Source: Arthrobacter sp. ISL-95
GTDB taxonomy: Bacteria > Actinomycetota > Actinomycetes > Actinomycetales > Micrococcaceae
DNA length: 64,000 bases
NCBI RefSeq assembly: GCF_018613695.1
Contig: NZ_JAGGPR010000015.1
Location: 1 to 64,000, forward strand
Direction of reading: 5' to 3'
Shown here: positions 1-59,212 of the stretch, piece by piece
How positions within the stretch are numbered: the first letter of the stretch is position 1
Layout of the letters: each line of letters starts with the position of its first letter
Position numbers and translations under genes: made by a program
Notes under the pieces: generated by a model
Seen by the model: the letters and a program-made list of their open reading frames with translations, nothing else
The model's database searches: none
Told to the model about the DNA's origin: nothing

Positions 1-407
1 GCAACTTTTCAAACTTACCCGATCAACCAGATCTTTGCAAATCAGCGTTTCCGCGATTTCCGATCCGAGTTCCGGCCCCACCCGACTCAGGCACACTCAG
101 AAGCGCGCCATCTCTCAGGCTGTTATCAAGGGGGTTGGCCTCCGCGATTCTCAGCTCTAGGCTGTCTCACTCGCGGCGACTCAGAAGACATTACACGTCC
201 ACAGGGCCCGGTACAAATCGACCCCTCAGGCCGTCCAAAACCCCGAGAACATAAGCCGAACGGCCTGATGAAGACCCCAAACCATCCAAAACCAGTCCAA
301 ACTCGCCCCAGTGAAGCCCATCACAACGCTAACCGCCCCACCGATCCACCGCCCCGCACCCCACCCACACCACCGCCGTCGAACATTTCCTTGAACCCGA
401 GGAACCT

Positions 408-480
408 GAGAGAGCGATGCCCCCAAACCCGAGGGAAGTGAGCGAGCATCCGGCTCAAACCCGAGGGAAGTGAAAGAGCG
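408..480 (+). repeat. 32-base-period GAGAGAGCG repeat, three units
   Basis: Cores start at 408 (GAGAGAGCG), 440 (GAGCGAGCA) and 472 (GAAAGAGCG), exactly 32 bases apart. Each of the last two is preceded by the same AACCCGAGGGAAGT spacer end. The same layout recurs near 12154, 58234 and 58404, so this is one member of a dispersed family. Confidence 0.75.
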
Positions 481-482
481 TT

Positions 483-650: not shown

Positions 651-956
651 TTACCAGGAAGACTTGGTGATGCCCGGGAGCTCACCACGGTGAGCCATGT
701 CGCGGAAGCGAACACGGGAGATACCGAACTTCTGGAGCGTGCCACGGGGACGGCCGTCGATCTGGTCGCGGTTACGCAGACGGATCGGGGAGGCGTTGCG
801 GGGCAGCTTCTGCAGGCCGAGGCGTGCAGCTTCGCGTGCTTCGTCAGTCGCGTTGGGGTCAACCAGGGTCTTCTTCAGTTCGAGACGCTTTGCAGCGTAA
901 CGCTCAACAATGACCTTGCGCTGCTCGTTGCGAGCAATCTTTGACTTCTTTGCCAT
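651..956 (-). CDS. rpsN: 30S ribosomal protein S14 (cysteine-free form)
   Basis: S14 binds 16S rRNA in the head of the small ribosomal subunit. The 101-residue product starts [14 protein letters not shown] and contains the conserved stretch around [12 protein letters not shown] and the C-terminal [18 protein letters not shown]. It is the long, bacterial non-zinc type: there is no CxxC zinc ribbon, unlike the short 61-residue zinc form. It is the last gene of a three-gene minus-strand operon, four bases after rpmG, and ends just before an intrinsic terminator. In many actinobacteria cysteine-free paralogues of S14, L28 and L33 are clustered and induced by zinc shortage through Zur; whether this organism also carries the zinc forms elsewhere cannot be seen here. 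Confidence 0.95.
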
Positions 957-6633: not shown

Positions 6634-6700
6634 CCCAGCGACGCTACCCGCCCCCGGTTACATCAGGGCCAACGCCAAGTGAACTCAAACACGTGGAGGT

Positions 6701-6709
6701 GAGAGAGCG
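6701..6709 (+). repeat. Single core of the GAGAGAGCG repeat family
   Basis: The bases GGTGAGAGAGCGACG match the core of the 32-base-period repeats found near 408, 12154, 58234 and 58404. Here only one core is visible. It lies upstream of the second SGNH hydrolase. Confidence 0.45.
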
Positions 6710-6732: not shown

Positions 6733-6851
6733 GCCGCAGCGTCGGTTTTGCGAAGGAGCGCATCGCGGCCCATCGTGGCGCGGAGGTCGCTTAACGACCG
6801 GAACGCCACCTATGGGTTGTGTCTAAGCGACGGCAAAACCGGCGCTTCGGC
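6733..6851. repeat. Inverted repeat with 19-bp arms
   Basis: The arm 6733-6751 (GCCGCAGCGTCGGTTTTGC) and the arm 6833-6851 pair at 17 of 19 positions, about 80 bases apart. The element sits just after the end of the siderophore-interacting protein gene and could be part of its terminator or a small non-autonomous repeat. No flanking target duplication is obvious. Confidence 0.55.
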
Positions 6852-6871
6852 GGACTAAGGGGCCAGGAGGT

Positions 6872-10967: not shown

Positions 10968-12038
10968 TTACTTGCCGGCTGCGTCTGCTGCTTTACCCAG
11001 CTGCGGGAGGAACGTGTCCAGTGCCCACGGCAGGCTCAGCGGCGAAGAAGCGGAAAGAGAGAGGGTAAGGCTCGAGTTCGTGTCAGCGATGAAGGAACCC
11101 TTCTTCACGGCAGGAATCTGGCTGAAGAGCGGGTCAGCTTTAATGGCGTCGGCGGCGGCGGTGTCCGCAACCCAGGTGATGAAGACATCCGAATCGAGCT
11201 CGTTGGCCTTCTCAGCGGACCACGGGATGAAGAAGTCCGTGGACGTCTTGGTGTTCTGCTCAACCACAGGGGCCAGCTTCATGCCGATTTCGGAGAGGAA
11301 GCGGGGGCGGTTGTCGATGGCCGTGTAGAAGCCCGTGTTAGCGGGCGTAGCAGGCTCGAGACTGCCATAGATGAAGGTCTTGTCCTTGATCTGCGGGAAC
11401 TTGGAAACCTTGTCCTTGACAGTGGTTTCGGTGTCCTCGATCAGCTTCTTGGCTTCGGCTTCCTTGCCCAGTGCCTTGCCGATCAGGGTGGTGCTTTCCT
11501 GCCACGGGGTGCCGTAGGCGAGCTCCGGCTGCGCCACAACGGGGGCGATTTCGGTCAGCTTCTTGTAGTCAGCCTCTTCAAGGCCCGAGTAGGCGGCCAG
11601 GATAACGTCCGGGTTGAGCTTGGCGATCTCGGTGAAGTTGATGCCATCTGCCTCGGAGAACTGGACCGGAGCCTTGTCGGTGCCAAAGCCGGCGCCGAGC
11701 TTCTCCAGCGCTGCATCCTTCCAAGGGGTGGAGCCCTTGTCGTTGTTGCCCCACTCGTTCTTGGGAACGCCAACCGGAACAACGCCGAGGGCGATCGCAA
11801 CGTCGTCGTTGACCCACGAGACGGTCACGACGCGCTTGGGCTGTTCCTTGATGGTGGTCTCACCGAAGACGTTCTTGATGGTCACGGGGAAAGCTGATGA
11901 TGCTGCTTGCTCAGAGGCCGGTGCGGAAGTTGCCGGACCAGTGGAGCAGCCGGTGAGGGAAAGAGCGACGGCAGCAAGGGCGGCCGTCGCGGTTCCTGCT
12001 GTTTTGAGCAGGGCGCGGCGTGGGAGAAGGGAAGCCAC
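10968..12038 (-). CDS. Iron-siderophore substrate-binding lipoprotein
   Basis: The 356-residue extracytoplasmic receptor of the importer begins with a GTG start and an AAGGAG site. It has a signal with twin arginines (RR at 7-8) and a lipobox ending at Cys31 (LTGC), so export may be by Tat with lipid anchoring. It then has a FepB/FhuD-type bilobal domain (KRVVTVSWVNDDVAIALGV, FTEIAKLNPDVILA). It is the first gene of the five-gene operon, behind an iron box. Confidence 0.93.
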   Translation of the reverse strand: MASLLPRRALLKTAGTATAALAAVALSLTGCSTGPATSAPASEQAASSAFPVTIKNVFGETTIKEQPKRVVTVSWVNDDVAIALGVVPVGVPKNEWGNNDKGSTPWKDAALEKLGAGFGTDKAPVQFSEADGINFTEIAKLNPDVILAAYSGLEEADYKKLTEIAPVVAQPELAYGTPWQESTTLIGKALGKEAEAKKLIEDTETTVKDKVSKFPQIKDKTFIYGSLEPATPANTGFYTAIDNRPRFLSEIGMKLAPVVEQNTKTSTDFFIPWSAEKANELDSDVFITWVADTAAADAIKADPLFSQIPAVKKGSFIADTNSSLTLSLSASSPLSLPWALDTFLPQLGKAADAAGK

Positions 12039-12085: not shown

Positions 12086-12490
12086 CTGTCGATAATTAAG
12101 AAACGTTTGCGTCACCTAATCCACTCAACTGGCGAAATGCGGCGCAGATCACACGCTCTCTCACATCCCAAGCCCTTCCCCTGAGCGCTCTCTCAGTGGA
12201 CATCTGCCCTGAGTCTTGAAAGTATTGGCGAGCGGACTACCGCTTCTTAGGGATCGAACGAGGGGATGAGCGTGCGCACTGTTTCAGTTGCCGCAGCCAT
12301 GGTTGGCGAGGTGGCCTCTTTGGCCTGCTTGGCACTCCCCCGCACGTCGGTATCTTCCTAGGCTCTTAGCCAGTCACCCTTTCCGGGGCCTTTTGCTGCG
12401 CCTGCTTTCTCAGATGACCGGCGACTTCTGCCTTTTCCCGCGCGCCCAAATCCCGCGCGGACGTCGACCATTTCCGAAAGAAGCTTTGCC
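12086..12490. other. Intergenic region with repeat element
   Basis: It lies between the divergent siderophore operon and the FBP gene. It holds the promoter side of the iron-regulated operon and a two-unit 32-base-period repeat (12150-12200). A short frame at 12288-12494 has no ribosome binding site and no recognisable content; I do not call it a gene. Confidence 0.5.
12150..12200 (-). repeat. 32-base-period GAGAGAGCG repeat, two units
   Basis: On the minus strand two GAGAGAGCG cores (12154-12162 and 12186-12194) are 32 bases apart. The spacer, ending GGGATGT, is very similar to that of the copy at 58234-58274 (both contain GAAGGGCT). It is a member of the dispersed family. Confidence 0.75.
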
Positions 12491-12985
12491 ATGAAGAAAA
12501 TTACTGCCCAACAAATCCGTTCGTCGTTCATCAACGCCAGTCGCTCAGAAGCTGCCAAGCTGAATCTCCCCCGCGACTTCGAAACCATTGACTGGGACAA
12601 CCTGGAATTCCTGGGCTGGCGGGACGAAAAGATGCCCCAGCGCGGGTATCTTGTTGTTCCGCACCGGGGAAAACTCACCGGGATCATGCTCCGCGCACCA
12701 GAAGGCGGATCCGGCAAGAGGCGTGTAGTCCTCTGCGAACTGTGCCGCGACGTGTTTTCCAAGGACGACGTTTACCTGTGGGTGGCCAAGAAGGCCGGAC
12801 AAGCCGGTAAGGACGGGAACACGGTGGGGACGCTAATCTGCGCGGAGTTCGGCTGCAGCGCCAACGTGCGCAAGGAACCGCCCGCCAACGAGATCAACCC
12901 GGACCCGGCCGCCGTCGTTGTTCGGCAAATAGCAGGACTGGAGGCCAGGACCGAACAGTTCCTGGAGCGCGTCCGCGCGAAGTAG
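12491..12985 (+). CDS. FBP-domain zinc-finger protein (FusB-like)
   Basis: The 164-residue protein matches the FBP family, whose C-terminal treble-clef zinc finger resembles that of FusB, the protein that binds EF-G and frees it from the ribosome. It has CELC (about residue 79) and a second pair in CAEFGCSANVRKEPP. The N-terminal helical part (KKITAQQIRSSFINASRSEA) is also typical. The match supports a translation-factor or ribosome-linked role, but no member in this group is well characterised. It converges on the SMC operon across a strong bidirectional hairpin. Confidence 0.8.
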   Translation: MKKITAQQIRSSFINASRSEAAKLNLPRDFETIDWDNLEFLGWRDEKMPQRGYLVVPHRGKLTGIMLRAPEGGSGKRRVVLCELCRDVFSKDDVYLWVAKKAGQAGKDGNTVGTLICAEFGCSANVRKEPPANEINPDPAAVVVRQIAGLEARTEQFLERVRAK

Positions 12986-35404: not shown

Positions 35405-35415
35405 TTGATTAACGC

Positions 35416-35483
35416 ACCCAACTGAGTCGCAGTTAAGCGCGTTTTGAATGCTGAAAACGCGCTTAACTGCGACTCAGTTGGGT
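35416..35483. repeat. 30-bp perfect inverted repeat
   Basis: Arm 35416-35445 (begins ACCCAACTGAGTCGCAGTTA) is the exact reverse complement of 35454-35483, around an 8-base loop GAATGCTG. It lies between the terminator of ansP and the fucose regulator, 51 bases before the regulator ATG. Such a long perfect stem is rare in this window. Confidence 0.9.
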
Positions 35484-35502
35484 GGGGACGCGGCGAAAAC
35501 AG

Positions 35503-58233: not shown

Positions 58234-58274
58234 CGCTCTCTCACATCACTAGCCCTTCACCCGATCGCTCTCTC
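58234..58274 (-). repeat. 32-base-period GAGAGAGCG repeat, two units (minus strand)
   Basis: Cores at 58234-58242 and 58266-58274 are 32 bases apart. The spacer is close to that at 12154-12194 (shared GAAGGGCT and GATGT). Confidence 0.75.
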
Positions 58275-58403
58275 ACTTGCTTGAAGAAAGCCCCCACCCA
58301 TTTGGCACTTAAGCGTGGATGCCGCAGCTCAGGCGCGCCCACGGCAATGCCAACCAAGATGCTGGAAAGGGAAAGGGGGTCTCGGCTCGAGCACGAGGGA
58401 CAT

Positions 58404-58540
58404 GAGAGAGGATCGCGCCCAAGCACCCGGGACATGAGAGAGCGACGCGCCCAAGCACCCGGGACATGAGAGAGCGACGCGCCCAAGCACGCGGGACGTG
58501 AGAGAGGAGCGCGCCCAAGCACGAGTGATGTGAGAGAGGG
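58404..58540 (+). repeat. 32-base-period GAGAGAGCG repeat, five units
   Basis: Cores start at 58404, 58436, 58468, 58500 and 58532, exactly 32 bases apart, with spacers containing CGCGCCCAAGCAC and GGGACAT or variants. The array ends one base before the stop codon of the minus-strand GntR gene, so it forms its 3' flank. Confidence 0.9.
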
Positions 58541-59212
58541 TCAGAGGACCTTGCGGATGGTCTCTTCGAAGCTGACTACGTGGTGCAGGGCGAGTTCGGC
58601 GGCGCGTCCTTCGTCGCCGTCGGCTATGGCGGTGAGGAGATCAGCGTGTTCGGAGATGTGGCCGGATACGGAGGGCATCTTCTCGAGCATGTGGCACCAG
58701 ATGCGGGTGGCGAGGTTGTCGTACCGGATGAGGACGTCTTCGAGATGCGCATTGGCGGAGGCCTTGTAGATGAGCCTGTGGACCTGGATGTCGTAGCGCA
58801 TGAGTTCTTGGGAGGAATTGTCCTGGCCTTCAAGATCACGGATTGCAGCGGCGACGGCGCGGAGCTCGGAACGCATGGCGGGGCTGGCCATGCGGGCAGC
58901 CTTCCTGGAGGCAAGTGGTTCCAGGAGCTCGCGGATTTCGGAGACTTCGGCGAGCTGGGTGATGTCCACGCCGGTGGCGAACGTGCCCCGCCGGGGGTAT
59001 GACACCACGAGATGGTCGCTTTCGAGGCGTTTGATGGCTTCGCGGACAGGAGTTCGACCAATGCCCAGCTCGGCGGCGATTTGGCCGTCATTGATGGGGT
59101 CGCCGGGTTTGACGTCCAGCATGATGAGCCTGTCGCGCAGCAGCAGGTAGGCGTTCTCCGCGAGGGACGTACCCTGTGGAGCGGACTCCAGTGCTTCCAA
59201 TGCTGCGCTCAT
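58541..59212 (-). CDS. GntR-family regulator (FCD type) of the glycine/sarcosine operon
   Basis: The 223-residue protein has a GntR winged helix (DGQIAAELGIGRTPVREAIKRLE, split here at 20: GQIAAELGIGRTPVREAIKR) and an FCD domain (RYDIQVHRLIYKASANAHLE, SEHADLLTAIADGDEGRAAE). It is divergent from glyA, and a palindrome overlaps the -10 of the glyA promoter, fitting repression of glyA-soxBDA in the absence of an inducer such as sarcosine or creatine. Confidence 0.88.
   Translation of the reverse strand: MSAALEALESAPQGTSLAENAYLLLRDRLIMLDVKPGDPINDGQIAAELGIGRTPVREAIKRLESDHLVVSYPRRGTFATGVDITQLAEVSEIRELLEPLASRKAARMASPAMRSELRAVAAAIRDLEGQDNSSQELMRYDIQVHRLIYKASANAHLEDVLIRYDNLATRIWCHMLEKMPSVSGHISEHADLLTAIADGDEGRAAELALHHVVSFEETIRKVL

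Follow-up and report, generated by a model that had tools for sequence, protein, structure and literature searches.

Arthrobacter genomes hold a genus-wide family of phased arrays, mostly at the 3' ends of genes, in which a short core recurs head to tail at a fixed period of 32 bp. This finding confirms and extends a preliminary description of such cores in the window, the 64,000-nt stretch of Arthrobacter sp. ISL-95 DNA analysed here. The family is not a RAYT-driven REP, an Rfam family or a CRISPR. We propose, with a probability of roughly 0.4, that each array is a modular 3'-end element at which transcription is ended or insulated directly behind the stop codon. Each 32-bp module would offer its core (GTGAGAGAGCG; CGCTCTCTCAC in the sense of the ending gene) to a lineage-specific DNA-binding factor. 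Because the modules lie three helical turns apart, copies of this factor could pack on one face of the DNA as a polar roadblock. Such phased DNA-protein roadblocks would act together with a T-tract and, where an outward second arm is present, the transcript would fold as a hairpin followed by a U-tract, as in an intrinsic terminator. The simplest account of the exact phasing, the dyad, the orientation and the change of core word is a sequence-specific DNA-binding factor. For the adjacency to stop codons, the enrichment in convergent gaps, the T-tract and the palindromic hairpin, it is transcription termination or insulation.

Phased arrays in the window and the genus

The cores described earlier at 408, 440 and 472 and at 58404, 58436, 58468, 58500 and 58532 (plus strand), and at 12154, 12186, 58234 and 58266 (minus strand), are all present. 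So is the centre, GAAGGGCT, common to the two-unit copies near 12154 and 58234, and the reported placement between genes stands, with none of the window's cores inside a gene called by codon usage. The core assigned to the family at 6701 exists, but there is no array there: it stands alone and scores only E 0.73 with a two-unit model, and is therefore not counted as an array. In total, the window contains four arrays and one lone, doubtful core:

407..481, plus strand: three-core array in 32-bp steps, GTGAGAGAG-like, facing the rpsN stop 170 bp away; the end of rpsN lies on one side and unannotated DNA on the other; the second core is the variant GAGCGAGCA and the third GAAAGAGCG (GAGCGAG, GAAAGAG)
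651..956, minus strand: rpsN, 30S ribosomal protein S14
6700..6709, plus strand: single core without a partner at 32 bp; membership doubtful
12154..12196, minus strand: two cores 32 bp apart in the divergent gap between genes 10968-11885 (minus) and 12491-12985 (plus)
58234..58276, minus strand: two cores 32 bp apart, the opposed outward arm of the array at 58403; arm-to-arm distance 128 bp
58403..58540, plus strand: five-core array in steps of exactly 32 bp; GG follows the last core, then the stop codon (58541-58543) of gene 58541-59212
58541..59212, minus strand: gene for a GntR-like regulator (score below curated cut-offs), its stop codon abutting the five-core array

A hairpin with a T-run, read by eye, lies at about 598-640, between rpsN and the 407..481 array. 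Two palindrome-like repeats beside cores were also seen by eye, GGAGCGCATCGCGG...TCTAAGCGACGG at 6745-6860 and CATCCGGCAGCGCGCG...GAGGATGACC at 490-545; repeats resembling them also occur after crp in G016, G041, G048, G061, G002 and G024. The window further holds a perfect 31-base inverted repeat with a loop of 8 bases at 35415-35484.

Pairs of exact cores at 32 bp are not a chance occurrence. In the genome from which the window comes (4.73 Mb, 25 contigs), TGAGAGAG-N24-TGAGAGAG has 29 exact matches, counted by eye, and other exact searches give 7, 25 and 23 matches against 0 for each reversed control. With 3 mismatches allowed, the count is 152 for TGAGAGAG-N24-TGAGAGAG and 84 for its reverse. 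The preliminary description named two outcomes that would tell against it, a 32-base spacing no commoner than chance across the genome and copies inside coding regions at the same rate. Neither was seen: the excess is large, reversed patterns have no match in the exact searches, and cores avoid coding regions (see below). Taken singly, cores with up to 2 mismatches show no enrichment in the window (53 found, 70.7 expected); the signal therefore lies in the exact core together with its period. The two-unit model (R1), built from 28 copies on sequence only, with no structure, yields 116 matches at E<=10 in this genome, which group by eye into about 45 clusters.

The period also holds when it is not imposed. 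With spacing free between 17 and 47 bp, 1,071 pairs are found in 37 of 76 genus genomes, against 1 in all for the reversed control. Among the 150 pairs listed, a non-random sample from six genomes with lengths counted by eye, 137 are spaced by 32 bp, 8 by 33, 1 by 31 and 4 by 21-25; seven of the eight 33-bp pairs come from a single genome (G066). Core distances were also counted in 69 named loci of the 99 kept, where pairs inside one array are not independent: same-strand distances peak at 32 (135), 64 (45) and 96 (12). Of the opposite-strand pairs, 133 run minus-to-plus and 0 plus-to-minus. Opposed arms point outward, minus then plus, in all 46 two-sided clusters. The inner cores lie exactly 22 bp apart in 24 clusters, 11-14 bp (about one turn less) in 9 and at some other distance in 13, so spacing across the dyad is looser than the tandem period. 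Cores point outward from the dyad and, with a helical turn of ~10.67 bp, most of them share one face. The crp locus of G051 (L196) is an exception to the fixed period, with 32 in its left arm and 30 in its right.

At E<=0.01, R1 matches 52 of 119 genomes, all of the window's genus, and none in the sample's 30 other genera. A scan for GTGAGAGAG-N23-GTGAGAGAG in one genome per species (84,980 species) returned at least 114 stretches; among the matches listed, 99 belong to Arthrobacter, Pseudarthrobacter, Paenarthrobacter or other Micrococcaceae, and the 15 scattered others were left out as not Micrococcaceae. A looser core with free spacing matches 52 of 197 genomes of the family, and outside the window's genus each genome has few of the listed matches to this loose pattern, at varying spacings. 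In one other genus, two genomes (G248 and G290) have 42 and 50 loose-core matches, where their congeners have 0-1; transfer or retention is possible. Array presence follows clades when counts are mapped on a rough tree, built from a region that is misaligned in part, and arrays recur at orthologous sites in several species, for example gcvT-gcvH, crp-NUDIX and ctaB (named from reading translations). Phages gave no matches, and the plasmid collection gave two Arthrobacter records (1.0 and 1.35 Mb) and one weak Azospirillum match. A gene for a conserved 320-aa protein adjoins arrays in several species (L084:6158-7120, L100, L108); from reading it, our guess is that the protein is AbiEi/DUF559-like.

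The unit consensus, drawn from 138 dissimilar units, is GTGAGAGAG CGTY SSSS N WWWW SS N GC R K N AA, and positions 19-20 are 91-93% A/T, compared with 38% in control intergenic DNA. In genomes where R1 finds nothing or little, the architecture is kept with another core word: GTGAGCGCG or GTGAGCGGG in G051 (66 pairs), G054 (34), G011 (29), G017 (34) and G001 (11); GTGAGGGAG in G035 (86) and G061 (25); and GTGAGCGAG or GTGAGCGGG in G050 (33). These counts, with reversed controls of 0-2, include some off-spacing, chance-like matches; G070, G026, G120 and G037 have 0 or 1. Replacement of the core word genome-wide in these sister lineages, with spacing kept, suggests a co-evolving recogniser, and the mixture of core letters within one genome means that recognition would have to tolerate some change. 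A protein-binding array, the first of several functions that the preliminary description offered without choosing, fits the 32-bp tandem, the frequent 22-bp inverted spacing and the lineage-specific words; the protein itself remains putative.

Tandem copies inside one locus are often near-identical, and the same gaps hold other repeat families. Both observations would suit selfish or neutral interspersed repeats that are kept where insertion harms least. We consider this origin very improbable, given that 17 genomes contain no Y1/RAYT transposase, that spacing is kept while spacers diverge, and that stems covary (see below). Nor did a recurrent transposase appear between distant arms: ten stretches between or beside such arms, read by eye, hold ordinary-looking ORFs, and the idea that the arrays are transposon ends was rejected.

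Placement and orientation at gene ends

Genes were called with a codon-usage caller written for this analysis, which misses some genes and so affects the contexts reported here; 97 of 118 clusters were kept, and 21 were dropped for want of a called neighbour. Cores avoid coding regions: 6 of 460 fall within called genes at a coding fraction of 0.85, and in the window's genome 0 of 109 core matches do (27 clusters, some registers counted twice). Convergent gaps hold 50 of the 97 clusters, compared with 72 of 352 background gaps (Fisher p 6e-9), and divergent gaps hold 8 of 97, compared with 98 of 352 (Fisher p 2e-5). Of the 26 clusters classified in the window's genome, 12 occupy convergent gaps and 4 divergent ones. 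The divergent group includes the 12154..12196 copy, which breaks the 3'-end rule.

One-sided arrays are oriented with respect to the genes that they follow. In co-directional gaps, 16 of 21 face the stop of the upstream gene, that is, they read CTCTCTCAC in its sense (p 0.027). In the window's genome, only 5 of 8 one-sided co-directional clusters do so, and of the three that do not, two have an opposed arm in the R1 matches. In convergent gaps, 17 of 23 lie closer to the faced gene (p 0.035; 3 ambiguous). A broader count, which put 42 of 51 one-sided arrays in agreement with the rule, was dropped because either orientation fits in convergent gaps. Arrays also begin close to the stop: 23 of 42 one-sided arrays start within 0-20 nt of the stop that they face, compared with 4 of 42 when measured on the far side. 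Among all faced arms, 53 of 108 lie at 0-20 nt and 5 overlap a called gene. Nine lie at exactly 2 nt, and each of these has a TGA or TAA that runs on into the C preceding the core. The gcvT-gcvH array, which sits between genes that often form one operon, counts against a 3'-end reading. The transcript-related role suggested earlier draws support from position and from the covariation described below.

The A/T tract, too, has a direction. In one-sided arrays, it is T on the strand reading CTCTCTCAC by 40 to 3, a bias that may partly reflect the family consensus. In two-sided arrays, the two innermost tracts agree in letter on a given strand in 16 of the 21 arrays that could be called (p 0.024); among the 8 callable arrays in co-directional gaps, 6 have T on the sense strand in both tracts. 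Pairs from G057 read by hand gave no uniform answer (4 for, 3 against, 2 unclear), and we therefore regard the two-sided rule as a tendency. We gave up the idea of a strand-symmetric A/T bend signal because the A/T letter follows strand and context.

Enrichment in convergent gaps and the phased A/T and G/C stretches of the unit would suit wrapped or bent DNA, and the arrays could be nucleoid, supercoiling or replication sites, for gyrase, SMC or similar proteins, that have settled at gene ends. This seems quite improbable to us, as such sites do not account for an orientation and start tied to the faced stop codon, or for an A/T letter that follows the strand.

Folding, Rho and the crp locus

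One-sided and two-sided arrays differ sharply in predicted folding (mean z -0.55, n=51, vs mean z -8.9, n=46). For 28 two-unit copies, RNAalifold gives 0 predicted pairs, which speaks against structured RNA in the tandem unit, and we do not regard one-sided arrays as folded RNAs. Pairing was examined in 21 tight palindromes, each with two modules per arm, after 2 of 23 had been dropped as near-duplicates. The inner stem, seven columns beside the inner core, is paired in 114 of 147 positions, compared with 83.7+/-4.6 when arms are shuffled between loci, and the outer stem in 107 of 147 (94.6+/-3.8 with shuffled arms). The A/T tract is paired in only 12 of 63 (27.5+/-5.2 with shuffled arms). A strong fold, a covarying stem and an unpaired tract together indicate that the two-sided form behaves as a hairpin with its A/T tract open. 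Template switching inside palindromes could account for part of the stem covariation.

It may be that the hairpin is all that matters: the palindrome would be an intrinsic, often bidirectional, terminator or an mRNA-stabilising hairpin, and one-sided arrays its decayed or half copies. The covarying stems and open tract of the 21 palindromes, the folding of the 46 two-sided clusters and the palindrome found in place of a GC-rich hairpin after crp in G063, G068 and G119 are what this explanation would lead one to expect. We nevertheless think it rather unlikely, since one-sided arrays are equally common (51 of 97 clusters), keep the exact period and orientation, and recur at orthologous sites (e.g. 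L094, L101, L122, L135).

Alternatively, the one-sided arrays could serve Rho. Excerpts of two papers describe a preference of Rho for unstructured, C-rich, G-poor, ribosome-free RNA with YC dimers (PMC6407284, PMC4499133). Transcript repeats of CUCUCUCAC after the stop would then be a rut array, and the DNA geometry incidental. On the CTCTCTCAC strand, spacers of one-sided arrays have C 0.34, G 0.26, T 0.26 and A 0.14, and the unit including its core is ~40% C and 19% G. Lack of structure in these arrays (z -0.55) agrees with a role for Rho, as does the rarity of a hairpin plus T-run after them (1 of 42, with controls also low at 14 of 176). Rho-dependent termination does not predict exact 32-bp and 22-bp spacings or a genome-wide change of core to words such as CGCGCTCAC or CTCCCTCAC (sense). 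Two-sided arrays are strongly folded, and a two-core array spans 41 nt, less than the 70-80 nt given for rut sites in the excerpts of the literature at hand. On balance, we judge Rho unlikely to be the explanation. The same count of 1 in 42 leaves unsupported the idea that one-sided arrays are spacers before intrinsic terminators, though the controls are low too.

The crp locus allows arrays to be compared at one site. The Crp gene is 98-100% identical and present in all 76 genus genomes, and 74 downstream regions were examined (G030, a partial match, and G014, at a contig end, were left out). These regions contain homogenised arrays of GTGAGAGAG, GTGAGTGAG, GTGAGCGAG, GTGAGCAAG or GTGAGCGGG type, another element, or neither. 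A 32-base lag appears in 30 of 74 regions, in some because of the other element. Arrays and a hairpin-plus-T terminator occur together in 13 of 15 one-sided and 1 of 2 two-sided classes, assigned automatically by a procedure that misses variant cores and by a hairpin score that misses terminators with short T-runs. Since crp arrays mostly coexist with a hairpin terminator, they are not the sole terminator there and would be a second barrier. One clade (G063, G068 and G119) has a palindrome after crp where other genomes have a GC-rich hairpin; replacement of the terminator by an array is anecdotal, being confined to this clade and, in part, G013.

The other element family seen after crp has GGACATGCYC words at recurrent spacings of 32, 29, 61 and 69 bases. 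It is found at L231 (G045), L234 (G049), L230, L236, L235 and L240, and elsewhere in G049, which has 78 pairs; G001 and G057 have 0.

Relation to known repeats and terminators

We found no published description of the arrays among the open-access papers listed; the text of a paper on Renibacterium VNTRs (PMC4029610) contains neither gagagag nor 32 bp in a word search. Rfam models have no match in the window. Run with an E-value limit on seven array loci, they give six matches at E<=0.1, all below the gathering score and mostly to miRNA-precursor models. CRISPR arrays have long identical repeats and unrelated, unique spacers. By this comparison of repeats and spacers the arrays are not CRISPRs, as their constant word is only 9-11 nt and the spacers of one array are often almost the same.

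REP and BIME elements are short intergenic repeats near gene ends, with inverted pairs and lineage-specific words. The arrays share all of these properties, but their single module is not palindromic and they keep an exact head-to-tail period of 32 bp. A search for the RAYT transposase domain (Y1_Tnp, PF01797) found it in 0 of 17 genus genomes, while a control search matched 5 of 14 known genomes, including E. coli. This absence and the non-palindromic unit (0 pairs, z -0.55) set the arrays apart from RAYT-driven REPs. Uptake signal sequences of Haemophilus combine a short word with a nearby A/T tract and form inverted pairs at gene ends; the arrays, by comparison, are far fewer and tandem at 32 bp.

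Bacterial termination is usually described as hairpin-driven or Rho-driven. Two-sided elements resemble intrinsic terminators in having a GC-containing hairpin, a short T-tract after it and a covarying stem. The family differs from such terminators in that one-sided arrays have no hairpin and that modules repeat at a fixed period. One-sided arrays resemble Rho rut sites in giving C-rich, G-poor, unstructured RNA after stop codons, but have a fixed word and an exact period, and their two-sided relatives are strongly folded. Oriented arrays with a word that changes between lineages would point to a third, protein-bound route of termination or, at a minimum, to a new architecture of 3' ends in high-GC Actinobacteria. 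The arrays are ready bait for the putative protein and would help to annotate dozens of gene ends per genome.

Such a route could take the form of a non-Rho, factor-dependent system in which a dedicated protein, bound to phased sites after stops, halts RNA polymerase in one direction, much as at eukaryotic Pol I terminators. The protein would co-evolve with the core word in each Arthrobacter lineage, and the T-tract would aid it, as would an RNA hairpin in two-sided elements. We hold this form to be possible, if doubtful, and infer a Pol I-type roadblock protein from geometry only. Pol I terminators have tandem Sal boxes.

According to the part of a study of Pol I available to us, Pol I termination joins a roadblock, a T-rich stretch and a hairpin (PMC12366685). 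The proposed likeness to the terminators of Reb1/Nsi1 and TTF-I lies in oriented sites for a DNA-bound roadblock, a T-rich non-template stretch before the site and an upstream hairpin, as that excerpt presents them. The same excerpt reports that a LexA roadblock gave no efficient hairpin termination at a distance, and that Pol I pauses 15 bp before the roadblock site. The array tract, about 10 bp before the core, counts against a Pol I-like reading on this last point. In bacteria, a LacI roadblock can end transcription via Mfd, and a block by Rap1 is orientation-dependent, as described in excerpts of a review (PMC10310618). Unlike Pol I terminators, the arrays are bacterial, number dozens per genome, follow protein-coding genes and have exact 32-bp tandem phasing. 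Many are one-sided without a hairpin, and the likeness is one of working only. The array family is in part like an intrinsic terminator, and would work like a protein-roadblock terminator.
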